IMG/VR virus record: IMGVR_UViG_3300032893_001286
Span: 1 to 24,975 of that record
DNA from: a virus
Strand: one strand, 5' to 3'
Length of the DNA: 24,975 nt
The translations under genes and the position numbers were made by a program. Positions within the stretch are counted from its first letter, which is position 1. Each line of letters starts with the position of its first letter. The notes beneath the pieces were generated by a model. That model was not told where the DNA came from and searched no databases. It saw nothing but the letters and a program-made list of their open reading frames with translations. Shown here one piece after another: positions 4,703 through 24,786 of the stretch.

Positions 4703-4705
4703 AAT

Positions 4706-5329: not shown

Positions 5330-5350
5330 GAGTTAATTATACCCTATTTT

Positions 5351-6636: not shown

Positions 6637-6642
6637 AGACTA

Positions 6643-6668: not shown

Positions 6669-6680
6669 ATGGTACTACTT

Positions 6681-6713: not shown

Positions 6714-6714
6714 A

Positions 6715-6954: not shown

Positions 6955-6956
6955 AT

Positions 6957-7810: not shown

Positions 7811-8634
7811 AACTTATATGCAGTATCTATTCTACAAGGAATAAGACCTTTTTGATCTCTATACTCTGTTAATAGTCTACGTTCTCCTTCATGATAGAGA
7901 GCAAGATCACCACTTCCTTGCTCTAAAGGTAAACCATGCTCTTCGCACCAGCGTTTTGCATCTTCCTGATAGGGTCCCTTAGTTGAGGTTGTGCCTCCCA
8001 TATGATCTATCTCAATACCCAACATAGCTACATGATGAAAGGTTTCAAGCATACGCATACACCAAATCTTATCGTAGAAATGGCAGGGAGTAATTTCATT
8101 ATCTATTCGTAATGAAGGTACAGCACTAGCTCGAAATGCCATAAATAAACTATCAAGAAAGACACAAGGAACTAGAGCATCAATTTTTGGTCCAGCAATT
8201 CCACCACGTTCTCCACGAAAATTACAAATAGTTCCTCGACCTCGACCACCATAATAATCTGCTTCAGGACTACCACAAAATCCAACTAAGCCTAATTGTG
8301 GATCAGCAGCAAAAACATGTCGTACTCTATTATCCCAAGCCTTTTCATAGAAATAGATATCATTATGGCAAAGTGCCAGAATATCACTTGTACCATACGT
8401 CTGATACATCCAGAGAAGTGGTAAATAAAATCCTTGATTTACTTCGTAGCGTTTTACTGTTAACTTAAAAGGAAAGTTATAATCCTTTTCATCATAAGGT
8501 TCTTCTTTTGAACCATTATCAATTAAGATAACGTGTAGTTCTCCAGGATTAGCTACTGTATCAACAATTGATTGAAGAAACTCTTTTGTGAGTTCTTTAC
8601 CTTCTAGAACTGGTACTCCAAGTGTAATCTGCAT
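7798..8634 (-). CDS. Glycosyltransferase family 2
   Basis: A 278-residue GT-A enzyme. The start TLGVPVLEGKELTKEFLQSI and the strand HVILIDNGSKEE are the usual nucleotide-binding elements. LALCHNDIYFYEKAW (about residues 106-120) carries the metal site (HND in place of DXD). FLDSLFMAFR and a downstream Cys/His-rich acceptor region follow. The end RRWCEEHGLPLEQGSGDLALYHEGERRL is not diagnostic. It lies directly after the aminotransferase gene and overlaps the next gene. It probably adds one sugar during assembly of the glycan whose synthesis the surrounding genes encode; donor and acceptor are unknown. Confidence 0.87.
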   Translation of the reverse strand: MQITLGVPVLEGKELTKEFLQSIVDTVANPGELHVILIDNGSKEEPYDEKDYNFPFKLTVKRYEVNQGFYLPLLWMYQTYGTSDILALCHNDIYFYEKAWDNRVRHVFAADPQLGLVGFCGSPEADYYGGRGRGTICNFRGERGGIAGPKIDALVPCVFLDSLFMAFRASAVPSLRIDNEITPCHFYDKIWCMRMLETFHHVAMLGIEIDHMGGTTSTKGPYQEDAKRWCEEHGLPLEQGSGDLALYHEGERRLLTEYRDQKGLIPCRIDTAYKLWKF

Positions 8635-8636
8635 AC

Positions 8637-9749
8637 TTAGTGAAATTTTTTAATTGCATCTACAATCTCAGTAAATTCATCATCTGTCATATCGGGATAA
8701 AGAGGTAAGGTTACTAATGTTTTCCAAACTCGATCAGTAACAGGTAGTTTTGTTGCTGGAAATAACTGTGTATATGTATTTAGTGGTTTATAGTGAACAC
8801 CAGCAGAAATACCATGAGCTAAGAGATAGTCAATAAACACATCTCGCTTATCAGCAGCTATTCTTACGGTAAACATATGCCATGAGGAATCTTTATCATA
8901 CTCAGGAAGCGTTAACCATTTCAATCCATTTAGTTCATAAAGATACTGTAGCACTCGAAGTTTACGTTTGTTATTTAGATCATCTAAGCGTTCTAACTGA
9001 GCCAGTCCAAGAGCAGCAGTAATATCATTCATGTGATACTTATATCCTACGCCACTAATTGAATAATCCCAGCCATATTTCTTTTGTGAACGCTCCCATG
9101 TACTTTTATCAATACCACACCATCGTAACGAAAGTAATTGCTTATACATTCTATCGTCATTGGTTGTTATCATTCCACCATCACCTGTAGCAAGGTTCTT
9201 AACGGCATGAAATGACCAACAAGCCATGTTATACTTTGCAACAGTACGATTGCCTGCTGCATGAGCTGCATCCTCTATAATGGGCACTTCAGCTTGGCTA
9301 ACACCCATTGCATCTTCTGATACAGTAACAACTTCTGGTTGTGCTGATTTTCCTCCATAATGCACAGGAATAATTGCTTTAGTTTGTCTGCTTGCTTTCT
9401 TATTAACATCTGCCCAATCTATACAAAGCGTTTTTTCATCAATATCAGCAAAAACTACTTCACACTCATTATACAAAGCAGCTAAACCATCTGAAACAAA
9501 TGTAAGAGCAGGAATAATTACTTGTGGCTTACCTTGTATTGCTCTCCCAATATGATGTACTTTTAAGGAGAGATCGAGAGCAGCAGTAGCACTATTAAGA
9601 GCAACAGCATATTTTGCTCCAACGTATTCAGCAAATTTCTTTTCAAATTCCTGTGTTTTGGGTCCCATTCCCCACCAACCACTTTTGAGGACGTTTGTAA
9701 CGCTATCTATTTCAAGTTGTGAAACTGAAGGCTTAAATAAAGGAATCAT
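8637..9749 (-). CDS. DegT/DnrJ/EryC1-type sugar aminotransferase
   Basis: A 370-residue PLP enzyme of the DegT/DnrJ/EryC1/StrS family, full length for the family. Motifs: SGWWGMGPKTQEFEKKFAEY (about 23-42); the cofactor-phosphate loop NSATAALDL (about 52-60); Asp160 in IEDAAHAAG, which contacts the pyridine nitrogen; and the Schiff-base Lys184 in SFHAVKNLATGDGGM. The C-terminal KYHMNDITAALGLAQL and the HYKPLN region are also typical. It should transfer an amino group from glutamate to a keto-sugar nucleotide. A second, diverged copy lies at 13963-15105 in the same operon. The neighbouring GNAT enzyme is a logical next step (N-acetylation). Confidence 0.93.
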   Translation of the reverse strand: MIPLFKPSVSQLEIDSVTNVLKSGWWGMGPKTQEFEKKFAEYVGAKYAVALNSATAALDLSLKVHHIGRAIQGKPQVIIPALTFVSDGLAALYNECEVVFADIDEKTLCIDWADVNKKASRQTKAIIPVHYGGKSAQPEVVTVSEDAMGVSQAEVPIIEDAAHAAGNRTVAKYNMACWSFHAVKNLATGDGGMITTNDDRMYKQLLSLRWCGIDKSTWERSQKKYGWDYSISGVGYKYHMNDITAALGLAQLERLDDLNNKRKLRVLQYLYELNGLKWLTLPEYDKDSSWHMFTVRIAADKRDVFIDYLLAHGISAGVHYKPLNTYTQLFPATKLPVTDRVWKTLVTLPLYPDMTDDEFTEIVDAIKKFH

Positions 9750-9752
9750 ACA

Positions 9753-10250
9753 TTATTCGATCATACCATTTATTCCTAGTAATTCGTTATGTCGTTTTCG
9801 TTCTTTTGCCATGTCTATTTTCATATAAACATAGCCTTTTTCCTCATACCAGAACTTAAAACCAAGATTCTTGTAGAGTTTAGTCGCTTTTTCATTATTT
9901 TTCAAGACACATAAATAATACTCAGTAAATCCAAAAGAAGCCATGAGATAAATTAAAGCAGTGGTAATAATACCTTTACCTCCTTTACTTTTATCTCCAA
10001 GCATTACTCGTTCTATCGAAGCAGTGCCAGATTGTAAATTTAATCCCACTACTCCTACGGGTACATTGTCATAATAAACAACAAAACTGTAATCATGAAT
10101 ATCAAATAAGTATCCTCTAAACCAGTTTTCATGTTGTTTTACATTAACATATTGCGAGTTCTTAAAATATTTTCTATTCTCATTTCTCCATTTACGAAGT
10201 AGTTTATAATTTGACTCAGTTAATTTTTCTAAACTAACTCTACTTATCAT
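9753..10250 (-). CDS. GNAT-family N-acetyltransferase (PseH/RimJ-like)
   Basis: A 165-residue acetyltransferase. It begins LEKLTESNYKLLRKWRNE, as in RimJ/PseH-type enzymes (LR.WRN). VGVVGL and the acetyl-CoA loop GDKSKGGKGIITTALIYL follow (about 86-103), then NNEKATKLYKNLGFKF. These are the standard GNAT motifs A and B, although the loop is GGKGI rather than the canonical RGxGxG. AAGGAG lies nine bases before the ATG. It sits directly before the aminotransferase gene, so it probably acetylates the amino sugar made there. The exact substrate is inferred. Confidence 0.85.
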   Translation of the reverse strand: MISRVSLEKLTESNYKLLRKWRNENRKYFKNSQYVNVKQHENWFRGYLFDIHDYSFVVYYDNVPVGVVGLNLQSGTASIERVMLGDKSKGGKGIITTALIYLMASFGFTEYYLCVLKNNEKATKLYKNLGFKFWYEEKGYVYMKIDMAKERKRHNELLGINGMIE

Positions 10251-10252
10251 AA

Positions 10253-10939
10253 CTATTCTCCTTTAATAAAGGTTGATTTCTTTGTTCGTCTATGCGTAAG
10301 TAATGTTACTGGTATTGGATCAATGTTCATAATTGAAGTCAGCTTATTTAGAAAACGACCATCACAACTTGCTGCTGAATCATAATCTGTTGGAAATAAT
10401 GGCTGTTGAATCTTCTCTAAAACATGACTTCTAAATGCTACCTGTCCACCATCAACAACACAATTCAAATCTGATCCTTTTAACTTAATATCATTTGCAA
10501 GAATCGTTCCATGATCGGTATTTTTATCGTCAGTAGAATGCATAGCAAAGTAACAAGCCCAACTATCAGGATGTGTTTCAAAGAACTCGGCTACTCGTGC
10601 AAAGCAATCAGGAGCAAAGATATCATCATCAGAGATATACATAATAACATCTGCACTTCGAGCCATAGCAGGAAAGTACTGATTTAATAATACAGCAGTA
10701 GGATATTCTTTTGCTCTATCTTCATCACTAATATTCTTCTCAATATAGACAACCTTACCTTTAGCCTTATCACTGGCAAGCATACTCAACACTTCTTTTC
10801 TTGTTAAGCCATCGTTGCTGTTTTCAATAATCCAATACACAAAGTTATAGTATGTTTGATTAAGCACACTACTAATTGCATCTTTTACATACTCAGGTTT
10901 ATTAAATGATGGAGTAACGCAAGCTATTTTGACTGGCAT
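10253..10939 (-). CDS. Glycosyltransferase family 2
   Basis: A 228-residue GT2 enzyme with an N-terminal catalytic GT-A domain. IACVTPSFNKPEYVKDAISS with SVLNQTYYNF is the classic GT2 start, followed by WIIENSNDG. The DXD motif is present as MYISDDDIFAPDC (about 94-106). The later DGGQVAFRSHVLEKI and DYDSAASCDGRF match the acceptor-side loop (usually ED/D-rich). It starts four bases after the methyltransferase stop. No membrane segment is present, so it acts in the cytoplasm. Which sugar it moves cannot be told. Confidence 0.9.
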   Translation of the reverse strand: MPVKIACVTPSFNKPEYVKDAISSVLNQTYYNFVYWIIENSNDGLTRKEVLSMLASDKAKGKVVYIEKNISDEDRAKEYPTAVLLNQYFPAMARSADVIMYISDDDIFAPDCFARVAEFFETHPDSWACYFAMHSTDDKNTDHGTILANDIKLKGSDLNCVVDGGQVAFRSHVLEKIQQPLFPTDYDSAASCDGRFLNKLTSIMNIDPIPVTLLTHRRTKKSTFIKGE

Positions 10940-10943
10940 ATTA

Positions 10944-11489
10944 TTATTTTATCAGTAAAAATCTATTTTCTTTTACTTCATTATGCAAAGGCACTTCTAG
11001 TTCTTGCTTAATACATTTGAATCCTGCTCTCGTAAATAATGCTCTCCATGCTAAAGCAGTAAATACTGAATAATGATTACTATAATTAACCATCTCTTTT
11101 GTACAAGTAGGTACAACTACAAGAGCATATTTCTTTGTTACTCGTGCCATTTCACAAAGCATAATAAGAGGCATCAATGAATGCTCAAGAGCATGACGAG
11201 CAATAACTAAATCCCATGTATTATCATAAACCATAGGAAGGGTATTCATATCTGCTTTTAGTGTTCCTGCTTCTCCTCCTAATGAAACTCCAACTTTATT
11301 AGTAAAAGGAAATAAACTTAAAAGAGGACTTGTACCAGCACCCAATTCAAGAACACCTTTTATAGGTAAATCCTTTAGCCATTTATCGTACACATCCTGA
11401 CAAGCTGGCAATTCATTATGTATCGGAGGCTGCTCCTGTATCTCACGAGCAAATCTATCAACATATTTTTTAACTACATCGTAATCCAT
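10944..11489 (-). CDS. Class I SAM-dependent methyltransferase
   Basis: A 181-residue methyltransferase with a single Rossmann domain. Motif I is VLELGAGTSPLL (about residues 46-57), the acidic loop is KADMNTLPM (about 78-86), and motif IV is WDLVIARHALEHSL (about 92-105), close to Methyltransf_11 enzymes. It overlaps the GT2 gene upstream by one base (TAATG). In this setting it may methylate a sugar nucleotide or the growing glycan; protein or nucleic acid targets are not excluded. Shorter than many relatives, but all core motifs are present. Confidence 0.85.
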   Translation of the reverse strand: MDYDVVKKYVDRFAREIQEQPPIHNELPACQDVYDKWLKDLPIKGVLELGAGTSPLLSLFPFTNKVGVSLGGEAGTLKADMNTLPMVYDNTWDLVIARHALEHSLMPLIMLCEMARVTKKYALVVVPTCTKEMVNYSNHYSVFTALAWRALFTRAGFKCIKQELEVPLHNEVKENRFLLIK

Positions 11490-12142
11490 TAAAGTGTTCC
11501 TTTCGCTTTTGCATAATCTAGAAACTGCGTACCATAATTAGGAAACCATTCGGCAGTACCACCAGTCTTCATATGATACTTATATAAAGGTTTATCTCCT
11601 TTATAAACAACTGCTCCTGCTTTATATGCTCTAATCCAAAACTCCCAATCATAATAGGCATCATGCGGTATCTTTTCATCAAAGCCTCCCAGACTTTCCC
11701 AGAGCGTTCTTTTCATAACTGAACCCATCAGCATAGTATTACCAAACAACATATCTCTGCTCATTCCATCAGCAATCCAAAGACCATCAGCTCCACCAAA
11801 CTTTCTATATACTGGCAAGTAAACATCATATCCTGGATTTTCTTCGAGAATCTTTTCAGCTTCTTCAATATACGTTGGCTCAAGTAGATCGTCACATCCC
11901 ATATCAAGAAAATACTTACCTTTTGCAAAACGAAAACCAAAATTAATAAGAACAGGTTGTGATTGAGAATGCTTAACAACAATTTTGACACTATCATCAA
12001 ACATCTTTCGAATTGCAGGAGTTCTACCATCTGTAGCAATAATAATCTCTACTGGTACAGTTTGCTTTAGTAAGCTATCAATACAGGCAGGTAGATACTG
12101 AGCATAGCCACCATAACAAGGAACAATTATTGAAGTTTTCAT
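11489..12142 (-). CDS. Glycosyltransferase family 2
   Basis: A 217-residue GT2 enzyme. TSIIVPCYGGYAQYLPACID with SLLKQTVPVEIIIATDG is the canonical GT2 start. KYFLDMGCDDLLEPTYIEEA supplies the DXD-type metal site (CDD, about 78-80). SVMKRTLWESLGGFDEKIP and YYDWEFWIRAYKAGA are the signature acceptor loop, with the (E/D)W-containing motif near residues 160-170. The ATG overlaps the stop of the Gfo/Idh gene (ATGA), and the end overlaps the methyltransferase start. It belongs to the same glycan operon; its substrates are not known. Confidence 0.92.
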   Translation of the reverse strand: MKTSIIVPCYGGYAQYLPACIDSLLKQTVPVEIIIATDGRTPAIRKMFDDSVKIVVKHSQSQPVLINFGFRFAKGKYFLDMGCDDLLEPTYIEEAEKILEENPGYDVYLPVYRKFGGADGLWIADGMSRDMLFGNTMLMGSVMKRTLWESLGGFDEKIPHDAYYDWEFWIRAYKAGAVVYKGDKPLYKYHMKTGGTAEWFPNYGTQFLDYAKAKGTL

Positions 12143-12924
12143 AGAGTTATTTTTTTCTCCTGTTTCATTGAATCTTCTATTGCTTCAAGCACTTTTACTA
12201 CTTCTTTACCAAATCCAAGACCAGAACGTGTTTTACCTGTTTTAATAAAATCTATAAATGCTTGCAACTCATTTTCAAGTGCTGTGGGATTTTTTGTAAG
12301 AGAGGTATCAAGCTGAATGTCTACTTCAGTATTAGTTACCTTAAAGTTTCTTACTCTAGTATTAGAAATCCACCCAAATGATACACAACCCTCAACCTTT
12401 TTGCAACGAATAAGAGCATATGCATTTTGCTCTTTACCAACCGTATATGTATCAACCTCACTTATGCCTCCAAACAAATCAATTACCATAGCTATCATAT
12501 GAGGTGCAAGCTCCCAAAGTGGTGTTGATTTACTTCCATATGATTCAGGATTAATAATTTCAAAAGAGAAATACTTTACTTTTGGCTGCATTGCCTTAAC
12601 CTTATTTCTAAACTTCTGATAGGCATTGTCATAAAGATAGGTATGCCCAATCATGATCTTCTTATTCGTTATCTTATATGCATCGTTGTATGAAGTAGTA
12701 AGTGGTTTTTCAACTAAAAGATACTTATCAGGAAATGCTTTAATGATCTCTGCATGAGTATCAACTGGAGTGGCTATAATAATGCCATCAATATCTTTTG
12801 CTTTTAATAAATCCTTGTAGTCTCTTGTCTTAACATACTTTATTTGACAATCTTTAATATGCTTGACTACCTCAAGATACTTACTTCCCCATCTACCTTT
12901 ACCAATTAGTGCTAGTGTTGTCAT
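12139..12924 (-). CDS. Gfo/Idh/MocA-family oxidoreductase
   Basis: A 261-residue NAD(P)-dependent enzyme, shorter than most relatives (about 330-380 residues). The nucleotide-binding start is LALIGKGRWGSKYL (residues 4-17). DGIIIATPVDTHAEII and LLVEKPLTTS (Glu-Lys-Pro, about residues 72-74, the family's key Lys) are typical. GHTYLYDNAYQKFR (about 93-106) fits the C-terminal catalytic domain, and PLWELAPHMI supplies the conserved His. It should oxidise or reduce a sugar or sugar nucleotide at a ring carbon, which would supply the keto-sugar for the nearby aminotransferases. It is overlapped at both ends by neighbours through ATGA junctions. Confidence 0.88.
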   Translation of the reverse strand: MTTLALIGKGRWGSKYLEVVKHIKDCQIKYVKTRDYKDLLKAKDIDGIIIATPVDTHAEIIKAFPDKYLLVEKPLTTSYNDAYKITNKKIMIGHTYLYDNAYQKFRNKVKAMQPKVKYFSFEIINPESYGSKSTPLWELAPHMIAMVIDLFGGISEVDTYTVGKEQNAYALIRCKKVEGCVSFGWISNTRVRNFKVTNTEVDIQLDTSLTKNPTALENELQAFIDFIKTGKTRSGLGFGKEVVKVLEAIEDSMKQEKKITL

Positions 12925-13961
12925 ACAATATTCAAATTCTTTGCTTCTGGATTGTTGAGCTTTTCAATAATATCATAAACATTGTCGAGCTTTGAACCTA
13001 AGACAATATCAAACCCCTTAAAGCCATAATCTTTTTTATATAGAATAGGTCGTGCATCAGTAGCATCATTATTTGGAAGTATTGTCTTTACTTCTCTTAC
13101 TTCTCCCATAAGTTTACTATCAATCAAAGAAGGTATATATTGCGAGGCATCAGTTATCATCTGTGTATATGTGCTATAAGGATCAGGGGTATATCTAACA
13201 TGATGTAGTGTATGCCCATGTGTATCAGGATAAGGAATGATAGCAAAATAATCACCATCCATAACTGTTATTCCTAACGAGGCTAGTTCTTTTGGAACTT
13301 TAATAAGAGGCATTACTGCAATTTCATTTAATAAATTAAGTTCTGGTAATGAAGACTCAGAAAGAATAGTATTTATTCCTGAATAAGCACAACAGATGAT
13401 TTTTTTACTTGCCACTGGACTAGACCCTTCAATATCAACAAATCCTTCTGTTACTGATCTTACTCTCTTATCTAAGAAAACATCAACTTTTGCATTCTTT
13501 AATCTTCTCTCTAAGAATCCTCTCAAAATATTAGCAGAGAAAACATTTTCTTCTACAATAAAAACACTTTCTATTAGGTGAGGATTAAAGAAGCTTTGTA
13601 ATGTTTTTGATGCAGGAATGAGGGGTATCTCAGCTATATTACAAATATTTACAAACTTATCAACAGGTGTCTTAGAATTTCTAGCAATAGCATAAAGCAT
13701 TAAACTATAATCATCTATTGCTTCTTCGAACTCTTTACAAAACTTTTTGTAATTTGCATGAGAGCGAGTAAGTGTCGAGAAATCACGAGGATAGTGATAG
13801 CCATTATGGATTCTTGCTTGATTTGAAGCAGAAGCTCTTTTAAGAATATCTCTTTCTTTATCAAGAAGTAGAACTTTTTCACCTTGCTCTGCAAAATTAA
13901 GAGCAATCATGCAACCATAAAACCCAGCACCAATAACAATTACACCATATTCATTATTCAT
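12921..13961 (-). CDS. FAD-dependent oxidoreductase, DAO-like
   Basis: A 346-residue FAD enzyme, taken from the ATG at 13961 that follows the aminotransferase TAA. A TTG seven codons earlier would overlap that gene and is less likely. The dinucleotide-binding fold is VIVIGAGFYGCMIALNFAEQG with the acidic LLLDKE after the second strand. SNQARIHNGYHYPRD (about 45-60) is a motif seen in FAD oxidases of surface-polysaccharide clusters. IICCAYSGIN and the C-terminal GFDIVLGSKLDN fit a DAO fold. It would oxidise an amine or hydroxyl on a small substrate, probably a sugar-linked one. Unusual in a phage. Confidence 0.85.
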   Translation of the reverse strand: MNNEYGVIVIGAGFYGCMIALNFAEQGEKVLLLDKERDILKRASASNQARIHNGYHYPRDFSTLTRSHANYKKFCKEFEEAIDDYSLMLYAIARNSKTPVDKFVNICNIAEIPLIPASKTLQSFFNPHLIESVFIVEENVFSANILRGFLERRLKNAKVDVFLDKRVRSVTEGFVDIEGSSPVASKKIICCAYSGINTILSESSLPELNLLNEIAVMPLIKVPKELASLGITVMDGDYFAIIPYPDTHGHTLHHVRYTPDPYSTYTQMITDASQYIPSLIDSKLMGEVREVKTILPNNDATDARPILYKKDYGFKGFDIVLGSKLDNVYDIIEKLNNPEAKNLNIV

Positions 13962-13962
13962 C

Positions 13963-15105
13963 TTACACTTGAGAAGGATCAACTACATAGCGATTTGTAG
14001 CAGCAAATTCATTACATAATGCTACTATCTTTTCTCTTTGTTCTTTTGTTACTGCCCAATGAACAGGAATAGAAACTTGTCTATTAGCAAACCACTCAGC
14101 ATTAGGAAGATCAGTTTTGAAAGGCTTAAACACAGTATGCACATCATTACGAGCATGAACCTGACTTACTGCTACTCCATTGTCTTTCATATACTGCATA
14201 AAGCGTGCTCTTGCTTCAATTGAAGGTAATACAATAGTATACAGCCAATAAGCACTCTTTTGAGGATAAGACGTTAATCGTGCTCGAATATAATACTCAG
14301 ACAAGTTCTTATTGTAATATTCTGCATTACTTCGATGTTTCTCTACTATCTCCATTGCATGAGGTAACTGAGCTAAACCAATAACAGCAGTAACATCATT
14401 CATGTGATACTTCATTGAACCATCAACAATATCTTGCTCAATTCTATTATCACCACCAGCAGGAGCAGCTTCACGATCTATACCATACCAACGTAACAAT
14501 TTAGCTTTCTTATAATCTTCTTCATTCTTACAGACCAACAAGCCACCATCAACAGTAGTAAAGTGTTTTATTGCTTGAAAACTAAAGATAGTAAAATCTG
14601 CTAGTGTGCCTACTTTACGATCTTTATATTCAGCTCCAAAAGCATGAGCAGCATCTTCTATTACTTTAATACCATGCTTATGAGCAACTTGTACAAGTTC
14701 GTCAAGATCACAAGGAGTACCACCCCAATCAACACAAGTAATGGATTTTGTATTTTTAGTGATTTTCTTTTTTACGTCTTGTGGATCTATAAGCCCAGTG
14801 TGAGGATTAACGTCTGCCCATATGATATTGCCTCCATTAGCAAGAATAGGAAGATTACTAGCAGTACAAGTAATGCTAGTAGTGATGCTATCCGTACCTT
14901 GTGAAACACCAGCCAATCTATAAGCCAGATACAAAGCGGAAGTACCAGAGTTAGTAGTAACCACATAAGGAGTACCAAAAAAATCGCTGAGAGCTTTTTC
15001 AAACTCCTCAACCTTTGGACCTTGTCCAATCCAACCAGAATGTAAAACCTCTAACAAAGGTTTATCTACGTCTTTAGATACAAAGACTTTGAAAAGTGGA
15101 ATCAT
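13963..15105 (-). CDS. DegT/DnrJ/EryC1-type sugar aminotransferase (second)
   Basis: A second PLP-dependent sugar aminotransferase. The ATG at 15105 (MIPLFKVFVS) is preferred because AAGGA lies five bases upstream; another ATG four codons earlier (15117) is possible. Motifs in the longer numbering: SGWIGQGPKVEEFEKAL (about 27-43), NSGTSALYLAYRLAG, IEDAAHAFGAE (Asp155) and the Schiff-base Lys184 in SFQAIKHFTTVDGG. The C-terminal KYHMNDVTAVIGLAQL is conserved. It is clearly diverged from the copy at 8637-9749, so the two probably act on different keto-sugars. First gene of the glycan cassette after the head genes. Confidence 0.93.
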   Translation of the reverse strand: MIPLFKVFVSKDVDKPLLEVLHSGWIGQGPKVEEFEKALSDFFGTPYVVTTNSGTSALYLAYRLAGVSQGTDSITTSITCTASNLPILANGGNIIWADVNPHTGLIDPQDVKKKITKNTKSITCVDWGGTPCDLDELVQVAHKHGIKVIEDAAHAFGAEYKDRKVGTLADFTIFSFQAIKHFTTVDGGLLVCKNEEDYKKAKLLRWYGIDREAAPAGGDNRIEQDIVDGSMKYHMNDVTAVIGLAQLPHAMEIVEKHRSNAEYYNKNLSEYYIRARLTSYPQKSAYWLYTIVLPSIEARARFMQYMKDNGVAVSQVHARNDVHTVFKPFKTDLPNAEWFANRQVSIPVHWAVTKEQREKIVALCNEFAATNRYVVDPSQV

Positions 15106-15128
15106 TTCATCCTTCATACTTATTACTC

Positions 15129-15836: not shown

Positions 15837-16079
15837 TTATTCTTTATTTGGTATTTCTGATGAATTGTTATATGTTTTCCAGTTCTTTACTACTACTGGT
15901 AAGGTTCGCAAAAAATTGTTAATAACATCAATAAGTCGAATATTTTGAGCCATAGCAGCTTTCTGTAAATCATTTACAGTAATATTTCTTTGATCTCCAT
16001 GAGTATCGGTAGGATTATTACATCCGCAGGTGAGGCAAATACTAAAGCACCATCCTTTCTTGTGTTTGCAAATAACTAA
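15837..16079 (-). pseudogene. 3' part of a small Cys-containing gene split by HNH-D
   Basis: An 80-codon open frame on the minus strand has no start codon of its own at its beginning (TGA at 16082-16080, then LVICKHKKGWCFSIC) and ends at TAA 15839-15837. It overlaps the end of the HNH gene in another frame. The content is protein-like: LTCGCNNPTDTHGDQRN, then VNDLQKAAMAQNIRLIDVI, with a CxxxxxxxC / CxxCxC arrangement suggesting zinc. An internal ATG at 15953 could give a 38-residue product. The matching 5' part is at 16504-16623. Confidence 0.55.
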
Positions 16080-16494
16080 TCATATTTTTTAATAAATCTA
16101 CTCTATCTTCTACTCTTCCTAAAACTGTATTACATCTACTACAAAGTAACCCTCTTACTCTACCTGTTTTATGATCGTGATCTACTGCTAAATTCTTACC
16201 ACGCTCTTCCTCCTTACATATTGCACAAACCCCCTTTTGTTTTAACAATAACATTTCGTATTCGTTTATTGTTACTCCAAAATTTCTTAAAATTCTTCTT
16301 AGTGCAACATCACGATTTTGCTTCTTAAACTTTACAGGAAAATTTACTTTTAATTTCTTTCTATAATCTTTAACGTCTTCTTTATGACATTTTCTACATC
16401 TTTCTCTAAATCCTCTCTTCTTACTTTTATTTACCACCCAATTTTCTTCTGTAAGAGGACTAAGACATTTTGTACAAACAGGCTCTTTCATCAT
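16042..16494 (-). CDS. Endonuclease VII-type HNH nuclease (HNH-D)
   Basis: A 150-residue nuclease of the recombination endonuclease VII family. CTKCLSPLTEENWVV and CRKCHKED form an N-terminal zinc ribbon. CAICKEEERGKNLAVDHDHK and GRVRGLLCSRCNTVLG form the catalytic part (His in VDHDH, zinc pairs CxxC/CxxC). It ends after KNMISYLQ with seven extra residues (TQERMVL) that overlap the frame of the split neighbour, as if the insertion ended there. TATAAT is 3 bases before the first ATG and 6 before the second (16491). Family members serve as homing enzymes or resolvases; here insertion inside a gene favours a mobile element. Confidence 0.88.
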   Translation of the reverse strand: MMKEPVCTKCLSPLTEENWVVNKSKKRGFRERCRKCHKEDVKDYRKKLKVNFPVKFKKQNRDVALRRILRNFGVTINEYEMLLLKQKGVCAICKEEERGKNLAVDHDHKTGRVRGLLCSRCNTVLGRVEDRVDLLKNMISYLQTQERMVL

Positions 16495-16625: not shown

Positions 16626-17663
16626 TTAAGCGTAAGGATCGTTGACGTTCTGTAAGAAACCATTCCAAGGTTCAGCTTTAACAGCCAAAACAGTATATTC
16701 ACTTACGTAAAATCTAACTGTATCAGCAATCTTAGCTAACTCTGTACGACCGATAGGCATAAGATCTGCCATTTCGAGTTCAGGAACCTGAAGAAGGTAA
16801 ACATTACTTGATGCTGCACCTTCAGAACCTGATGATCCTGCTGTATTGTATGGATATGGGATAGCTGGGTTAATGAAGAAATCACCAACAACAGGTAAGA
16901 CACCTGCTGGAGACTGGTAATTTACTGCATGGATACCTGCTGTAACCGTAGTTCCATCAGCAACGACATATCGGGCTTGAGGTGAAACAATCTGTGCAAT
17001 CTGTGATTGCATACCGAACGAACAGAAGAAATGGGTTGGCTGACCTCCTTGTAGACGAACAAGTTTAACAAGACGATCAAGCTGCTTAATAGAATTACCA
17101 ACACCTGTCAATGAACCTCCTGCGAGGTTAATAACATTAGTTGTCAACTGAACACTAAGACCACTGAAACCAGTAGCACCTGTAGAGTTACTTACTGCTG
17201 AATTTCCATTAAAGATACACCATTCCTCTGCCTGAACAACTTCACGAAGTTTTGCTTCCGCAACTTCAGCTTCGATGTCCATGAACGAACGACCAGATGC
17301 AATCATAGGACCAGTGATAACACCAGTAACACCAAGATAAGCATATGCAGCCGTTTGTTGTACGTAAATAGGATCAGATTGGGTTGGTAATGCACCATCA
17401 GCGTAGAAAACTTCTAGTGGTGAATTGTTTGTAGGCAATGAACCAAGTTGTTTTCTTTGATTCCACAAATGAGCACGACCTTCTCCTCTAATTCTAGGCA
17501 TAATGTCACGCAACGGAGTGTTTCGGTTGGTCAATTTAACAACCTCAGACTCTAAATCTTGACGAGCAAGCAAAGAGTTAGGGATTGGACCAGCAAAACC
17601 TGATACGTTAACATTTTTAGCAAACAGATTTAAGATTCCTTCTGGATCAAGATAACCATTCAT
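16626..17663 (-). CDS. Major capsid protein, HK97-like
   Basis: A 345-residue protein matching the HK97-fold major capsid group that includes the SU10-type proteins. LTNRNTPLRDIMPRIRGEGRA (about 45-65), then GVTGVITGPMIASGRSFMDIEAE and EWCIFNG (about 148-154) are the spine helix and P-domain region. PTHFFCSFGMQSQIAQIV and MADLMPIGRTELAKIADTVRFYV are the C-terminal strands that usually end this fold. The N-terminus carries AGPIPNSLLARQDL (residues 24-37), which is nearly repeated in the protease gene. A strong AGAGGAGGTGA precedes the ATG, as expected for the most abundant virion protein. It is preceded by the protease and followed by small head genes, the standard order. Confidence 0.9.
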   Translation of the reverse strand: MNGYLDPEGILNLFAKNVNVSGFAGPIPNSLLARQDLESEVVKLTNRNTPLRDIMPRIRGEGRAHLWNQRKQLGSLPTNNSPLEVFYADGALPTQSDPIYVQQTAAYAYLGVTGVITGPMIASGRSFMDIEAEVAEAKLREVVQAEEWCIFNGNSAVSNSTGATGFSGLSVQLTTNVINLAGGSLTGVGNSIKQLDRLVKLVRLQGGQPTHFFCSFGMQSQIAQIVSPQARYVVADGTTVTAGIHAVNYQSPAGVLPVVGDFFINPAIPYPYNTAGSSGSEGAASSNVYLLQVPELEMADLMPIGRTELAKIADTVRFYVSEYTVLAVKAEPWNGFLQNVNDPYA

Positions 17664-17784: not shown

Positions 17785-20010
17785 TTAGTTTGAAACAGCC
17801 ACTTTCATTTTCTGGTATTTCTTTGGAAGAACACCATAGTCACGATATTTGTGGTACTCTGCAAAACTTACTTCTGGATCATTATGGAATTTCTCCAATA
17901 GATCTTCGTTTCCTTGATCTTCAGTACCCATAACGGTATCTGACTGACCAAAGTTTTTTTCAAGAGCAAAGCCCTTACGAGTTGTTTTTTCAGAAACTAA
18001 TCTTTCGATTGTGTCATCTCGTTTTTCAAGACTCTTCTGCATCTCTTTCATCAAACTGAGAGCAGTGTTAAGAGCTTTGAATGTTGAAGTTGTTCCACTT
18101 CCCTCGCTATTGGGTGAAGACGTGTAATCTGATGCAGATTCACTGTCTTGCTCTTTAAGATTTGGTTTAGCACCTTTTGGTGAAACTTCTCCTCCATTTG
18201 CTGATTTATCAATTTCAGCAGCTTTACTGGTAGAACTTGCAGCACTAGATTCGATTGGACCAATCGTGTTATCACTTGATGTGTAACTTGATTTTGGTTC
18301 TCGATTCTGTTCTTTAAGATTTGGTTGTGAACCAATCTTTTTATCTTTAATTTTTTTAGCAAGTTCTTTCATGGTGTCAGCAGCTTTAACTAATTGAGCA
18401 AGAGCATCATCTGTCTCATCAACCTCTTCTGCTTTACTTGTAGAAGATTTTGAGCTTCCGCTTGAACTTCCACTTGTGCTGCTTCCTGAGCTTGAATCGC
18501 TAGAATCACTACTACTTGATCCGCTACTACTATCTGAACTACTTGAAGCAATACTACTGTTAATTGATTCCAGTGTGCTTTCCAATTCAGAAAGTAATGA
18601 GCTAATTTCACTACTTACATCACTTGATGTTGAGCCTTTGCTTGTGCTTGATTTATCAGAACCGCTTGATGTACTTGACCCACTAGAAGTAGAGCTGTCA
18701 GAACCGCTTGAGCTATCTGAACCACTTGAACTACTAGAGTCACTTCCACCTAATGTTGGGAAAGAAGATACACTGCCTGATCCTGAGTCGGTTGAAGTTG
18801 AATCTGAAGATGATGAACCTTTTTCGACTACTTTTGTATCTTCTTTTACAACATCACCTTCTCTTTTCTCAACAGTTTTTCCATATCCTTCGATAAAGTG
18901 TTTAACATCATCTGGAACTGTTTTTGCAACAAGATTGTGATTTGCCATATCATCATTCACCTCCTTTTCTGTTAAAGATTTATCCTCGTCTTTTACTACT
19001 TTTTCAGACTGAGGATCATACGTATATTTATCGCCTGTCATTTTATTAAGTTTGGCAGCAAGTTTACCTCCCATATCTGCCCATTTATGATCGTCATAAC
19101 CACCTGCTGCTCGCTGTCCTGAATGATTAAAGTACCGTAAAGCTGGCATTATATGCTTCTCATCTGCTGGGTACTTATAATTCTCTGAATCAAGAAAATC
19201 ATTTCGATCAACATTTTCGTATTCTTTTGGCTGCTCTTTATTAGCATTTACTACATTACCTTTTTCTGTCTCACTATCACTAGTTGCCTGCTTCTTTTTA
19301 CCTGCTAAGTCTTGTCTTGCTAATCCTGAATTTGGTACTGGACCTGCTGCGGTAATGTCCATCTTACCCATACATTTATTGCAGACATTATCACAATCCT
19401 TAGCCATACATTTCTGATGCTCACAAAAGTCTTCATGGCTGCACTGCAACTGTTTGATATATCCCATTGGATCATATTCATCTAGATTAAGACTCTTTGC
19501 TACTGCTTCAGCAAACGTATCTAAGTTAGCAGGATGATCGGTAACACTCACTTCTGTTGCTGAAACATCTCGATAGGTAGGAATATATTTACCAGCACTT
19601 GAAACCAATTCTTTTACAAGACCTCCTGGATTAATCTTTCCTGCAACACTCAATCCCATTCGTGTTGTGCCATCTTTAAGCAATTCAAATAAGTCTCGTG
19701 CTTTACTCTGCCAATCATAGAGTCTTGCTTTAATCCATAATGCAGGAGCACCAGCTTTATCAACAACATCTGCTTCAACTATCTCTCCTAATTTATCGTG
19801 CCATCCTTTTTGGTGTTCATCTCGTAGGGGTTTACCAATGAGGTCTTTTGCCATCTGAATAAGCACTTCAGGACTCATTCTCTCACCAGTTAAGTCAACA
19901 TTTGTAGTAGCAGCTATTCCCTCAATGAAGCGTTGTCCATTCGTATCGGTATACGATTTGGTAATAGTAAAAGCTGGAGCAGAAAAATCAAACGTATGTA
20001 CTTTTTCCAT
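17785..20010 (-). CDS. Prohead protease with scaffold-like tail
   Basis: A 741-residue protein from the ATG at 20010. A TTG 12 codons earlier lies in a TTGACA and is unlikely. The protease domain is residues about 1-165: EGIAATTNVDLTGERMSPEVL, His66 in RDEHQKGWH, Ser121 in GLSVAGKI, and ATEVSVTDHPAN, fitting the XkdF/herpesvirus-type phage proteases. A Cys-rich patch follows (six Cys plus His, about 190-213), then AGPVPNSGLARQDL (222-235), nearly identical to the capsid N-terminus. A DUF6582-like part (KYPADEKHIMPALRYFNHSG, about 278-345), a Ser-rich stretch (about 398-526) and two PNLKEQ repeats complete it. The length and disorder suggest fused scaffold function. Confidence 0.85.
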   Translation of the reverse strand: MEKVHTFDFSAPAFTITKSYTDTNGQRFIEGIAATTNVDLTGERMSPEVLIQMAKDLIGKPLRDEHQKGWHDKLGEIVEADVVDKAGAPALWIKARLYDWQSKARDLFELLKDGTTRMGLSVAGKINPGGLVKELVSSAGKYIPTYRDVSATEVSVTDHPANLDTFAEAVAKSLNLDEYDPMGYIKQLQCSHEDFCEHQKCMAKDCDNVCNKCMGKMDITAAGPVPNSGLARQDLAGKKKQATSDSETEKGNVVNANKEQPKEYENVDRNDFLDSENYKYPADEKHIMPALRYFNHSGQRAAGGYDDHKWADMGGKLAAKLNKMTGDKYTYDPQSEKVVKDEDKSLTEKEVNDDMANHNLVAKTVPDDVKHFIEGYGKTVEKREGDVVKEDTKVVEKGSSSSDSTSTDSGSGSVSSFPTLGGSDSSSSSGSDSSSGSDSSTSSGSSTSSGSDKSSTSKGSTSSDVSSEISSLLSELESTLESINSSIASSSSDSSSGSSSSDSSDSSSGSSTSGSSSGSSKSSTSKAEEVDETDDALAQLVKAADTMKELAKKIKDKKIGSQPNLKEQNREPKSSYTSSDNTIGPIESSAASSTSKAAEIDKSANGGEVSPKGAKPNLKEQDSESASDYTSSPNSEGSGTTSTFKALNTALSLMKEMQKSLEKRDDTIERLVSEKTTRKGFALEKNFGQSDTVMGTEDQGNEDLLEKFHNDPEVSFAEYHKYRDYGVLPKKYQKMKVAVSN

Positions 20011-20087
20011 AAGTATGCTATCTTCATAATAATTTATATTTGTCAAATGTGTGTAAACGAGGCTAATTTGCGGTTGTATTTTGAGGC

Positions 20088-20124
20088 TTTACTAATTATA
20101 ATTAGTTAATTATAATTAACTAAT
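20088..20124 (+). promoter_or_regulatory. Promoter overlapped by two palindromes (operator)
   Basis: TTTACT (20088-20093), 17 bases, then TATAAT (20111-20116) make a plausible promoter for the plus-strand nuclease gene, whose ATG is 14 bases further on. A perfect 16-bp palindrome, 20091-20106 (ACTAATTATAATTAGT), overlaps a perfect 24-bp palindrome, 20101-20124. Both have a TTATAA centre that includes a TATAAT. The second palindrome covers the -10 site. The layout fits autoregulation by the ribbon-helix-helix domain of the encoded protein. The A/T content makes some palindromy expected, but not two of this length. Confidence 0.55.
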
Positions 20125-20130
20125 ATTATT

Positions 20131-20766
20131 ATGGTTACTAGGAAGAGCAGATATGGTATTGCAAGAAAAGGAGAGAATCTTGTTCATTCTCTTTTACCTA
20201 ACTCAAAATTAATGGTAGATATTGATCCACACTTACCTTGGGACATAGAATGGGAAGGAATAAAGATAGACGTTAAAACTTCTCAGTATAACGTAAATTC
20301 TACTGGATTCACCTTTAACATAGCTCATCCCTATAGCAATAAAGCAATTTACGTCTTAGTTGGTTTAGCAGAGGGAAAAACCTATTTTTGGGTAATAAAA
20401 CGGATTGATGCTTCTTCTTATCTAGCTAAACACAAAGATGCAATAATAGCAGAAGAATTACCCGAAGCAATCAAAATTTGTTCTCAGGCTGAAGAACCTC
20501 CATTACCAGAATTTATGCATGCTAAACATAGAATAAATATCACTCTTGACGAGAAACATATAGCAGCTTTAAGCTCTTACTCAAAACGTACAGGTAAAGA
20601 TAGATCACGTATATTTGGTGAATGGATAGCTGAAAAATTATTACCAAACCTAGAACTAACAGAAATATCTGTTGTTTCAGATGATCCAAATACTACTCCA
20701 GGAGTTTATCCTTTTGAAAAAGTTACACCAGTCATTACCGATGCCCTTCCAACTCCGCAACGCTAA
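20131..20766 (+). CDS. PD-(D/E)XK-type nuclease fused to a ribbon-helix-helix domain
   Basis: A 211-residue protein, the only plus-strand gene in the head region. Residues about 5-125 look like a PD-(D/E)XK nuclease core: RKGENLVHSLL (Glu15), PWDIEW (Asp38) and IKIDVKTSQYN (Asp47, Lys49), i.e. E...D...DxK, then strands YVLVGLAEGKTYFWVI. Residues about 133-172 form a ribbon-helix-helix module (HRINITLDEKHIAALSSY, then GKDRSRIFGEWIAEKL). The tail is short and disordered. A DNA-cutting enzyme guided or autoregulated by its RHH part is the most direct reading. Its stop overlaps that of the ParB-fold gene by four bases (convergent). No Shine-Dalgarno sequence, so the mRNA may be nearly leaderless. 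Confidence 0.72.
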   Translation: MVTRKSRYGIARKGENLVHSLLPNSKLMVDIDPHLPWDIEWEGIKIDVKTSQYNVNSTGFTFNIAHPYSNKAIYVLVGLAEGKTYFWVIKRIDASSYLAKHKDAIIAEELPEAIKICSQAEEPPLPEFMHAKHRINITLDEKHIAALSSYSKRTGKDRSRIFGEWIAEKLLPNLELTEISVVSDDPNTTPGVYPFEKVTPVITDALPTPQR

Positions 20767-21263
20767 AAGCGTTTTAATGCTTCATTATCTGCTTCTGTAG
20801 CTCTATCATATTGTTTATTTTCCTCCTCACCCATTTTTTCATTCTCTATTGTTGGAACCATCTTGTGTCCTAATTGTCTGTAAGCTTCTGCTCTATGTTT
20901 ACCATCCAAAACTCCCCACTTACCATCAGCTTCTTTTGTTACTCGTATTGGTGCTGTTTCGTGTCCACTTTGTATTAATCGTTTATATTGAGCAACTCGC
21001 ATCATATCTGTACCTTCATGAGATTTAAGATTCTCTATATTCTTAAAACCTGATCCTGATACTTTACCACCACCTGAACTGCCTCCACCACCATGATGTC
21101 CACGACCTCCTCCACCAGATTCATCATTGAAATACATATGCCTACCACCAATTGTTACCCAGCCTTTTTCTACCCAATTTGCTTCTTGAGATAAAAATGC
21201 AGGATGCCATTCAGGAAGTTTCTTTTCTTTTTCAAATGCAGGATGCCATGAGGGTAATTTCAT
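20763..21263 (-). CDS. ParB-fold domain protein of the head module
   Basis: A 166-residue protein from the ATG at 21263, directly after the portal-fusion stop (TAATATG). The start has a duplicated KLPSWHPAF / KLPEWHPAF motif (residues 2-10 and 15-23). A VEKGWVTIGGRHMYF block (about 31-45), common in phage minor head proteins, follows, then a Gly-rich linker (about 50-72). Residues about 75-140 are a ParB/sulfiredoxin-type fold (PIRVTKEADGKWGVLDGKHR, AEAYRQLG), with GKHRAEA as the signature. Such domains may act as a nuclease or nucleotide-binding unit. The gene context (portal, protease) suggests a virion or assembly role. The 3' end overlaps the convergent nuclease gene. Confidence 0.75.
   Translation of the reverse strand: MKLPSWHPAFEKEKKLPEWHPAFLSQEANWVEKGWVTIGGRHMYFNDESGGGGRGHHGGGGSSGGGKVSGSGFKNIENLKSHEGTDMMRVAQYKRLIQSGHETAPIRVTKEADGKWGVLDGKHRAEAYRQLGHKMVPTIENEKMGEEENKQYDRATEADNEALKRF
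21195..21249. repeat. In-frame duplication in the ParB-fold gene
   Basis: AAATGCAGGATGCCAT occurs at 21195-21210 and 21234-21249. The 39-base period equals 13 codons, which explains the KLP(S/E)WHPAF duplication in the protein. The DNA identity suggests a fairly recent duplication. Confidence 0.7.
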
Positions 21264-21264
21264 A

Positions 21265-24200
21265 TTACTGTCCCATTCTATCAGCAATCATGTTGCTAAC
21301 CTTAGAAGAACCAAACTGTGCATAGTCTCCTACCAGAACACATCTACAATTAGGATGAATAGGAACAAGATCGCCAGCTTCACCAACTTGATATGGATTA
21401 CCACTAGCTACATCCTGACACAATAAACAAGCACTTGAAGCAGGAGATACATTAACTTGTCGAATACCTGCTTGCTGATATTGCTGTCTCATACCTTCAC
21501 TAATTGCCCAGACTGATTCAGTTCTTGCAATACGCTCTGCTCTCCATTTTGGAGTCATAGGATTATTTGGATCAATTCCTAATGCATTCTGAATCATATC
21601 TGCTATCTCAGCATAACCTCTACCCTGATCGAGACCTCGAACAATAGCATCGTGTACATTTTCCATCATAGTATTATAAATACTATCAGTAACTAAGTTA
21701 GCTCGTTCATTAAACATAGGAGCATACATTTCAGGATTACTTAACTTTACATCAGGCACATTATATTCATTAATCTTTGGTTCAATTAATAATCGTGCAT
21801 CAGCAGCTCCTAAATTAAATGCTGCCGAGTAACTTGTTGCTCCTAAAACAATATCATTTTTACTTGGTCGTTTGTTTGCTGGTAAAACAGTCATTGGATA
21901 TTTTACTCCACCCTGATAAACATACTTACCATCAGTAACATAATCCTGTTTTGGATCAAAATTCTTTGCCTTCTGAACTATCACTGGCTTAGCCATCTGT
22001 GCTACCTGTACTGTTTTTGCATAGAAATTAGCTATACCTCTCTGTAATTCAATAGCAAACTTCTTTTCAACATCTTCTTGTCCAGCCATTCTTTCCCAAT
22101 CATCAGGTCTATGAGCAAGAAATGCTTTCTCAGTAAACTGCATCATGTCGTTTGCTCCAAATTCTTTTGCTGCTTTTTCTACTTCTTCATCAAAGAGCTT
22201 CTTTAATGCTGGATGAATAAGAAGAAGTGTCTTAGGTAGATAACCATTTGTTTTCTCCCATGAATGCTGATCTTTGAAGAACTGATAATCAACACCAAAT
22301 CCATTACCCTGACGAGTAATGATGTAGTGTCCTGGCTTTCGATCTCCAAGATAATACAAACGTTCAGCAATCCATATCTTTGCTAAGTCTCGTACTGCAT
22401 TACCATAGGCTTCTGGTGCTGCTCTCATTTGTTCTTGTAGTTGCTTATCACCTAGATCTGTACCAGTAATGAAACCAGTAACAATGTAGTAGTTTGATTT
22501 TCGTGAATCATTATTCCATCGTCTTCTCCAATCCATAGAATCAAATGGTGGCTTTAACTGTAGCCAATTTGTCCAATAAGAATACATATTGGTAGGCAGA
22601 AGCTGTAATACTTGTTGCTCATTCATGATTTGTACTTCAGGAGTATTTGCTTTCATGCCTCGTAGAATATTAGCTACTTCTGCTTCTGGTGGATCTTGAT
22701 CTTTTCGATCATCAAGCATACTTGACTTAATTGTAAATCCAACTGTCTTTTCTCTATCAGTAACAAAAAGTGGTTGGGTAACACCTCTATCATCCATCCA
22801 ACAGACTGCATTAAAGTTATTGTTAAGTGGTACAATTTCTCCTTCGCCAAAGCTAAAGACTTTAGCAACATCTGAATCCTGACTAAATGAAAGGGTTACT
22901 TTCTGTCCATGCTGATTAGAGAAACTTAATTCATTAAATGTTATCTTTGTGCCTCTAAATCGAGTATCACCATCATATTTCTTTCCCATGCCTTTTTTAA
23001 GATAAGCAATCGTTACATGAGGACTGTAGTGAGGAAATGTTGCTCCTGGAGCACCAATCTGATTAATAATCTTTTCATATAATCTATGAAGTCCTGCACT
23101 CTCAACATTGATCTTTAATACATCATAATCATTTTGTTCAAACATCGAAACAACACCAAGCGTTACTTCGATAGGAGCTTCTTGATTAGTAAATGTACCT
23201 AAAGCTGCTGGAGATAAATAAGTATCTAAACCATACACAACAGTAATATGAGTTTCTGGTTCTCTACCACCCTGAGCATTATTTAATTCACTAGCAGGAA
23301 TTGTATTAGCAAATGCTTTTACTTTAGTAGCAATATCATCAGGAAGATCAAGTTGTGTTGATTGCCATTCATAGTTCTTTTGTCCTTTTGGTAATACCTT
23401 TTCAACAGTCAAGCTCTTGCCTACTGGAAGCAAATCACCATCACCATTATCCATCATTTCAGTAGCATCAACTTTTACCAGTGTTGATCCAAGAGTAATT
23501 GTTGGTTGCATACCTCCTACAATAGGATCAAGACCATCACGCTGTCGAATATCATTAATACTTTTAACTCCTGTTTGTAGATATACCTTATCTACATTAG
23601 CCTGATCTACAGGATCAACAACATCAGTATCTACCCAATCAAACTGCAAGTTAGTTGCATACTTATCGAGAGCAACATCATGTAAGACTTCACTATCAAG
23701 ATACTGCTTAATAACATTCTTAAGTGAATTAATTGCTTTGTTCTTTGATAATTGTAATTGTGTTTCTCCTTCAACTTTATATTGATCTAAGGTAAACCCA
23801 ATATCTTGAGGACTCATACGATACAATGCTACTTTCCAACGCATCTGCCATTCAACATACTTCTCCCATGCCATATCATTTGGTTTTGCAAGCAAGTTCT
23901 CTACCTTAAATCCTTCATTAAACGAAGCAATAACAGGAGCATGAAAACCTTGTAATCCTTGCATTTCAGCAGCTAAGAAGGATCGAAACTTATCTATTTC
24001 TGCTGGTGGTACTTCTTTACCCATGTTAATAATCATTGGAGGAATTGTGTTGTTCTTAAAGAACATGAGGTTATATGCTTCTGCATGAAGAAATGCTGTT
24101 CCTACTGCTAATCCTGATTCAACTGGAGATTGTCCAAAGCCAAAGTTATCAATTGAACCTTGTGGATTCCACATAATGTAAACAAGATCTTCATTGTTCC

Positions 24201-24786
24201 ATTCTGCTACTGGTTTATCTAAATTACGATTTGGAAGATACTGTTGATAGGCTGGTTCACCAATCATACCATGCTCATCATAACAAGGTTTAATTGTTGC
24301 TCCATCTACATGATATAGCTCAGTAATAAGACCACTACTGTCTCGAACTTTTTCAAATGTGCCAGCATCAACTACTAAAATGTCTTCAATGATCTTATCA
24401 ATAAATGTTCGCCAGTTTTCATTATTCTTATTTGGTCTACGAAGCAACTCCATGATATATTCTTGAAACTTCTTATCATAATAGCTTTTAGGATCAACAG
24501 GAGTAATATCCCAAGGAACAGAACCAGAAATTTCGTCACGTAAGGTATTAATACACGTTCTATCTACCCAATTAGAAGCAGCCATTCGTCTAAGAGTAGA
24601 GAAGGTAATTTGGTTTGGTTTACGTAGTCCATACTGCTGATTCATTGCCTGATATGCAGCAGCAAGAGGATTATATGCAATACCCTCACGATCAGCCTTT
24701 TCTACGGTATCTGGTTGCTGTACAACAGGAGTAGGCTTTGGCACGTAACCAAAATTACCCATTACTCGATCTAGGAAAGAAGCCAT
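21265..24786 (-). CDS. Portal - 2H phosphoesterase - Mu gpF-like head protein fusion
   Basis: A 1173-residue fusion. Residues about 1-440 are a phage portal protein (RPNKNNENWRTFIDKIIEDI, WNPQGSIDNFGFGQSPVESG, MSPQDIGFTLDQYKVEGETQ). Residues about 474-636 form a 2H phosphoesterase domain with both HxT motifs (HITV at 513-516, HVTI at 590-593). Residues about 700-870 are an unassigned segment (WRRRWNNDSRKSNYYIVTGF, GHYIITRQGNG). The C-terminus (about 1080-1150) is the Mu gpF/SPP1 gp7 head-morphogenesis module: RAERIARTES, CLLCQDV and HPNCRCV, with Cys1120, Cys1123, Cys1147 and Cys1149. Portal and gpF-like genes are normally separate neighbours, so the fusion and the 2H insert are unusual. Confidence 0.88.
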   Translation of the reverse strand: MASFLDRVMGNFGYVPKPTPVVQQPDTVEKADREGIAYNPLAAAYQAMNQQYGLRKPNQITFSTLRRMAASNWVDRTCINTLRDEISGSVPWDITPVDPKSYYDKKFQEYIMELLRRPNKNNENWRTFIDKIIEDILVVDAGTFEKVRDSSGLITELYHVDGATIKPCYDEHGMIGEPAYQQYLPNRNLDKPVAEWNNEDLVYIMWNPQGSIDNFGFGQSPVESGLAVGTAFLHAEAYNLMFFKNNTIPPMIINMGKEVPPAEIDKFRSFLAAEMQGLQGFHAPVIASFNEGFKVENLLAKPNDMAWEKYVEWQMRWKVALYRMSPQDIGFTLDQYKVEGETQLQLSKNKAINSLKNVIKQYLDSEVLHDVALDKYATNLQFDWVDTDVVDPVDQANVDKVYLQTGVKSINDIRQRDGLDPIVGGMQPTITLGSTLVKVDATEMMDNGDGDLLPVGKSLTVEKVLPKGQKNYEWQSTQLDLPDDIATKVKAFANTIPASELNNAQGGREPETHITVVYGLDTYLSPAALGTFTNQEAPIEVTLGVVSMFEQNDYDVLKINVESAGLHRLYEKIINQIGAPGATFPHYSPHVTIAYLKKGMGKKYDGDTRFRGTKITFNELSFSNQHGQKVTLSFSQDSDVAKVFSFGEGEIVPLNNNFNAVCWMDDRGVTQPLFVTDREKTVGFTIKSSMLDDRKDQDPPEAEVANILRGMKANTPEVQIMNEQQVLQLLPTNMYSYWTNWLQLKPPFDSMDWRRRWNNDSRKSNYYIVTGFITGTDLGDKQLQEQMRAAPEAYGNAVRDLAKIWIAERLYYLGDRKPGHYIITRQGNGFGVDYQFFKDQHSWEKTNGYLPKTLLLIHPALKKLFDEEVEKAAKEFGANDMMQFTEKAFLAHRPDDWERMAGQEDVEKKFAIELQRGIANFYAKTVQVAQMAKPVIVQKAKNFDPKQDYVTDGKYVYQGGVKYPMTVLPANKRPSKNDIVLGATSYSAAFNLGAADARLLIEPKINEYNVPDVKLSNPEMYAPMFNERANLVTDSIYNTMMENVHDAIVRGLDQGRGYAEIADMIQNALGIDPNNPMTPKWRAERIARTESVWAISEGMRQQYQQAGIRQVNVSPASSACLLCQDVASGNPYQVGEAGDLVPIHPNCRCVLVGDYAQFGSSKVSNMIADRMGQ

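Follow-up and report, generated by a model that had tools for sequence, protein, structure and literature searches.

The gene at positions 20131-20766 of an uncultured virus contig encodes a protein in which a PD-(D/E)XK nuclease core is joined by a flexible linker to a ribbon-helix-helix (RHH)-like segment, and it is preceded by its own promoter-like site. From sequence and modelling, we propose that it represents an independently expressed nuclease cassette. Taken as a whole, the gene is best read as that of a free-standing, self-limiting nuclease, most likely of the homing type, in which an RHH dimer would repress its own promoter; a probability of about 0.42 is given to this reading. Among its parts, autorepression by the RHH-like tail appears reasonably probable, while the homing role is put forward more tentatively.

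Genomic context of the nuclease gene

The window, meaning the whole stretch of 24,975 bases that was analysed, is the source record of the contig and may be a fragment. In the list of open reading frames, the nuclease gene spans 20131-20766 on the plus strand, stop codon included, and encodes 211 aa from an ATG start codon. It is the sole plus-strand reading frame of annotated gene size across 1910-24786, all the others lying on the minus strand, which bears out the original prediction that no other gene reads against the head operon. On one side it adjoins the gene of a small ParB-like protein (20763-21287, minus strand), next to which lies a portal-MuF fusion gene (21265-24786, minus strand). 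Its other neighbour encodes a large low-complexity head-region protein (17785 to 20010 or 20046, minus strand), beyond which the SU10-type major capsid protein is encoded (16626-17663, minus strand).

The phage has no close relative in the collections searched, and its capsid and portal proteins share only 22-27% identity with known phages. Exact-peptide scans of viral contigs revealed no close relatives of the nuclease, portal or capsid proteins, and the same type of scan in genome contigs gave none for the nuclease. A tblastn search with the whole protein against 50,697 phage records and 72,556 plasmids returned zero matches at E 1. The collections thus offered for comparison no allele lacking the gene and retaining the conserved flanks.

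Elsewhere in the window, a long run of glycosyltransferase-, aminotransferase- and acetyltransferase-like genes with HNH genes in between occupies 3434-15117 on the minus strand. The portal-MuF protein (21265-24786, minus strand) displays an internal 2H-phosphoesterase domain at residues 482-609 (PF13563, E 1.1e-7), and the same segment matches the anti-CBASS protein Acb1 (PF23474) with an E of 2e-5, just under the cut-off.

The PD-(D/E)XK nuclease core

No model of the family libraries matched the protein above its own cut-off. Relatives were fetched with degenerate DNA patterns built on D38...DVK, which gave about 190 sequences, nearly all of them small proteins of phages that share this signature. 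Conservation of D38, G43, D47, V48, K49 and T50 is not independent evidence, since the search pattern partly fixes these residues. In an alignment set of which half of the sequences had not been chosen by the pattern, E15, P23, D38, D47 and K49 were nevertheless invariant. The acidic residue Glu15 (20173-20175, plus strand) of the first core helix lies outside the search pattern and is conserved in at least 90% of the sequences. Asp38 (20242-20244, plus strand) corresponds to the metal-binding Asp of the core, and Asp47-Val48-Lys49 (20269-20277, plus strand) to the (D/E)xK signature. The PD-(D/E)XK-like pattern of Glu15, Asp38, Asp47 and Lys49 noticed in the original prediction is thus present and conserved across the relatives.

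The nuclease domain was defined from the relatives, the predicted structure and the fold comparison as residues 1-117 (20131-20481, plus strand), its end being placed near residue 117 because the nearest relative is a single-domain protein of only 126 aa. Structure prediction with AF2 from the single sequence gave a pLDDT of 34, whereas the model built with a 67-row alignment reached mostly 80-93 for residues 4-60, with the helix-strand order expected for the core. The alpha-beta-beta-beta-(alpha)-beta topology was recovered in this model, and VIA-align scored it at Z 9.2-9.5 to solved members. The top fold matches were tied, namely NhoI (Z 9.5), I-Ssp6803I (Z 9.4) and Eco15I (Z 9.2), and the archaeal Hjc came lower (Z 7.5). 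Foldseek alone gave a weaker result (E 0.06). Weak matches were also obtained with the PADLOC REase_II model (E 0.007) and between the profile of the relatives and Eco15I (E 0.054). On the evidence of sequence and model, the core is assigned to the PD-(D/E)XK fold and is of an ordinary kind, widespread among phages, which corrects the original prediction.

Two further phage contigs (L017 and L113) carry a core of the same group inside 296-aa proteins. Among the alignment members scanned, one of these two proteins matches the recombination mediator NinB in its C-terminal half.

The C-terminal RHH-like segment

The core is followed by a predicted disordered linker at residues about 118-130 (20482-20520, plus strand), with pLDDT below 50 at residues 101-134. 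The RHH-like segment was delimited from HMM matches and the AF2 model as residues 131-173 (20521-20649, plus strand), comprising the strand RINIT and helices at 141-154 and 158-170. The remaining C-terminal tail (20650-20763, plus strand) was modelled mostly with low confidence. The RHH_1 model gave a single match in the window, at 20530-20628, with an E of 1.9e-4 when the window alone was searched. Searched with the fragment against all Pfam, RHH_1 reached an E of 0.007, and DUF6364, RHH_3 and HicB-like models matched the same segment, as did the BrnA model (E 0.004). All matches to RHH families were weak and below the curated cut-offs, and they were consistent in place. Since the RHH_1 score (16.8-17.1 bits) is below the curated value of 20.5, the segment is called RHH-like and not a confirmed member.

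In the AF2 monomer, two helices with pLDDT of about 72-80 follow the linker, and the strand RINIT was not formed; its absence may reflect a ribbon that is made only by the dimer. ParG and NikR were among the weak structure matches in the PDB. Sequence and model together suggest that the C-terminal segment is likely an RHH. The RHH assignment made earlier is supported by the two helices and by the weak agreement with several RHH families, but the scores stay under the curated cut-offs and the strand is missing from the model.

Palindromes and promoter-like site upstream of the nuclease gene

A palindrome scan revealed a perfect 16-bp palindrome, ACTAATTATAATTAGT, at 20091-20106, and a perfect 24-bp palindrome, ATTAGTTAATTATAATTAACTAAT, at 20101-20124, which overlaps the former. 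They are the two longest palindromes of the window and can be broken down into two copies of one 12-bp palindrome, TAATTATAATTA, at 20093-20104 and 20107-20118, the second following the first at 14 bp; the window contains no other exact copy of this 12-mer, and both copies are putative operators. By chance, 0-0.005 palindromes of at least 24 bp and about 0.5 of 16 bp are expected per window, and the two jointly were obtained in 0 of 20,000 simulations of local intergenic sequence. The 24-mer exceeds what chance would give.

A promoter scan placed the region's best sigma-70-like site, TTTACT-17-TATAAT, at 20088-20116 on the plus strand, with its -10 element at 20111-20116. The copies of TAATTATAATTA cover the spacer and -10 element of this site, the latter lying inside the 24-mer. 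Taken together, promoter-like sites are no more frequent in the region than chance predicts. The overlapping perfect palindromes and the -10 box within the longer one were all found as originally described. The gene is near-leaderless, with no Shine-Dalgarno sequence ahead of its ATG. A third, imperfect copy of the core, TAATATTATTA, was seen by eye at 20121-20131, with the same 14-bp spacing and running into the start codon. Control of translation by an RNA hairpin, known from T4, was considered but not retained here because an upstream plus-strand transcript is not apparent.

Considering 27 genes of the window, an above-chance dyad near the start was found for the nuclease gene alone. The dyads before other nuclease genes (TATAATAATTATA and CTATAATTTGTTATAG) are suggestive by eye and were rejected as not above chance. 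Viral contigs other than the window's own record gave no match to the tandem operator pattern. The two identical 12-bp palindromes are consistent, as a single case, with operator sites that the RHH-like tail would bind.

TATAAT elements of the other nuclease genes

Four further nuclease genes are present in the window, two of the NUMOD3-HNH homing type and two that are HNH/endonuclease VII-like. They are located at 2813-3424, 4706-5329, 6130-6636 and 16042-16494, all on the minus strand and each with TATAAT ahead of it; the last is an endonuclease VII-like gene. NUMOD3 is a DNA-binding motif of homing endonucleases. All five nuclease genes of the window, and one of 22 others, the portal gene, have a TATAAT no more than 30 nt from the start codon (Fisher p 7e-5). 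In these six genes the element lies 9-20 nt ahead of the ATG, a position in which it occurs in none of the 21 other genes counted, and most of the six are missing a clear Shine-Dalgarno sequence. At the nuclease genes this arrangement may mark near-leaderless units, and it agrees with cassettes of a mobile type that are each expressed separately. Homing genes of phages are known to gather in the neighbourhood of capsid genes and other essential genes (PMC10448857).

The motif extends beyond the hexamer. TATAATTAGTC and TATAATTAACT, i.e. TATAATTA followed by GTC or ACT, are located 12 nt ahead of two HNH genes, and TATAATCAGTT, containing TATAATCAGT, 11 nt ahead of the portal gene. Two HNH genes devoid of RHH therefore have the half-site TATAATTARY ahead of them as a simple promoter-like element. 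Because TATAAT also precedes the ATG of the four other nuclease genes and of the portal gene, each palindrome may owe one half to the promoter consensus. The portal gene (24797, minus strand) and one HNH gene (6648, minus strand) have in common TTGACA-14 nt-TATAAT, with an unusually short spacer and TATAC directly before the -10 element.

Relatives of the nuclease

The nearest relative, from an uncultured virus of IMG/VR (L222:296-673), shows 36% identity over the nuclease domain (tblastn against the fetched loci, E 2e-11). Its 126 aa stop where the RHH-like segment would start, and its gene has no above-chance dyad; it is placed ahead of an ArdC-like anti-restriction gene. A second group is formed by one further fetched locus (L043) and proteins of Vibrio, Streptococcus and Fusobacterium phages (phrog_13389 and phrog_28936), three of its sequences having been found by similarity and not by pattern. 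These proteins belong to the same nuclease clade, with the GExLFxxLVPxA helix and D-x8-DxK in common, but they display an N-terminal HTH-like segment (weak HTH_28 and HTH_8 matches) instead of a C-terminal RHH, and no above-chance dyad. The nearest relatives are found in early, accessory or recombination regions and not in obvious homing loci; that of Streptococcus phage Javan316 is flanked by RecT and terminase genes.

Homologues with the same two-domain order were looked for, and no RHH-like tail was seen among the reading frames of about 190 relatives. An RHH_1 search in the records of five relatives gave no match, and phmmer with the RHH segment against the open reading frames of about 200 loci found nothing. 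Palindromes ahead of the start codons of homologues were above chance in none of the 19 tested, all of which lack the RHH-like tail, so that this comparison bears on the fusion with a sample of one. The top match in BFVD, A0A516LWE3 (292 aa, 246 alignment columns), may be another two-domain protein. A literature search for phage PD-(D/E)XK-RHH fusions, with coverage mostly of non-subscription papers, identified no paper. Within the collections searched, the RHH fusion with tandem putative operators looks like a new combination, the parts and the logic of which are already known.

Comparison with known systems

The closest functional analogue is I-TevI, as a homing endonuclease with a DNA-binding domain that also autorepresses. 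This T4 enzyme uses its DNA-binding domain to repress the late promoter of its own gene (PMC3943268, PMC2988022). Like the protein described here, it consists of a nuclease domain, a linker and a DNA-binding domain, and its operator overlaps its own promoter, as the putative operator does here (PMC2988022, PMC3943268). It differs by its GIY-YIG nuclease fold, its other type of DNA-binding domain and its location in an intron, whereas the present gene has palindromic putative operators and no evidence of an intron.

The PD-(D/E)XK homing endonuclease I-Ssp6803I (PDB 2ost) shares the nuclease fold (Z 9.4, 101 residues, 3.3 A) with 9% identity. It is encoded in an intron of a cyanobacterium, and we know of no RHH tail in it. 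The bacterial BisI-family enzymes NhoI and Eco15I likewise have the same fold (Z 9.2-9.5) with 14-18% identity, NhoI being at 18%. Enzymes of the BisI type are restriction enzymes that depend on modification by methylation (PMC11347163). RHH repressors and antitoxins of the CopG, Arc and BrnA type resemble the present protein in its RHH-like segment and in the palindromic site over its own promoter, but such regulators are small or act as antitoxins alongside a toxin, while here the segment is fused to a nuclease and there is no partner gene. A type II toxin-antitoxin pair was considered and rejected: the products of the two flanking genes, which lie on the opposite strand, are a ParB-like protein and a large low-complexity head-region protein.

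Proposed mechanism and alternative explanations

In the proposed self-limiting nuclease, dimerisation of the RHH segment would bring two nuclease domains together. RHH dimers would occupy both copies of TAATTATAATTA at the -10 box, so that with enough protein the promoter would be shut off and a dangerous nuclease would limit its own dose. The same DNA-binding module may help to position the nuclease on its target. Extended to a homing-type endonuclease in which one RHH module is both the reader of the target and the autorepressor acting through the tandem palindromic operators, within a family that swaps HTH-like and RHH-like modules, the proposal is rather doubtful. The self-regulation suggested originally is still plausible, with the dyad found only before the RHH-bearing gene among 27 genes and with I-TevI as a precedent, but its half-site serves as a promoter-like element elsewhere. 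Also against the favoured reading are the occurrence of the fusion in no relative, the RHH scores under cut-off and the location of the relatives outside obvious homing loci.

The palindromes themselves might be paired bidirectional copies of the phage's own -10 element, with TATAATTARY on both strands, from which the nuclease and the head gene would be transcribed divergently; the RHH-like tail would then have another purpose. This explanation, which we regard as unlikely, concerns the palindromes only and is compatible with any role of the nuclease. It draws on TATAATTA and TATAATCAGT ahead of HNH and portal genes that all lack RHH, and on the palindromes also giving TATAATTA when read on the minus strand. 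However, the other genes with the motif have no above-chance dyad, the exact 24-bp symmetry and the exact 14-bp repeat exceed a promoter consensus, and the minus-strand copies are 90-104 nt from the next start codon, compared with 9-20 nt elsewhere. A transcription regulator with a dead nuclease, which kept its old core only for dimerisation, would suit the operator-like array and the RHH-like tail. With all catalytic positions intact and conserved across relatives that lack the RHH, it is very improbable.

Regarding the role of the nuclease, it could be a competitor-exclusion or restriction-like moron that cuts the DNA, perhaps modified, of rival phages or the host and is held in check by RHH autorepression. 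NhoI and Eco15I among the tied top folds, the weak REase_II match and the weak match of the relatives' profile to Eco15I, the ArdC-like gene next to the nearest relative and the modification dependence of BisI enzymes (PMC11347163) all point in this direction. Yet I-Ssp6803I shares the tie and NhoI is only 18% identical, the site lies among late head genes, and no DNA methyltransferase that could protect was present among the flanking genes scanned, a subset of the genes of a record that is possibly a fragment. On balance, exclusion is an improbable role. A recombination or packaging nuclease resembling Holliday-junction resolvases, in which the RHH-like tail would bind DNA or dimerise in a generic way, appears less probable still. 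It is suggested by the similarity to Hjc and by the setting of the Javan316 relative, but the window already has an endonuclease VII-like gene, and an antisense position with a self-contained promoter-like site is odd for an essential nuclease.

Implications

If the favoured reading of a self-limiting, homing-type nuclease is true, the gene would be a one-gene system in which DNA-binding module, operator and cutting domain are separable for testing. It would extend the logic of I-TevI to another fold and to a DNA-binding domain of the repressor type, and would offer a compact natural case in which a nuclease is linked to a module of the transcription-factor type. The analysis also marks as nucleases the small PD-(D/E)XK proteins of phages, which form a large group lacking annotation.
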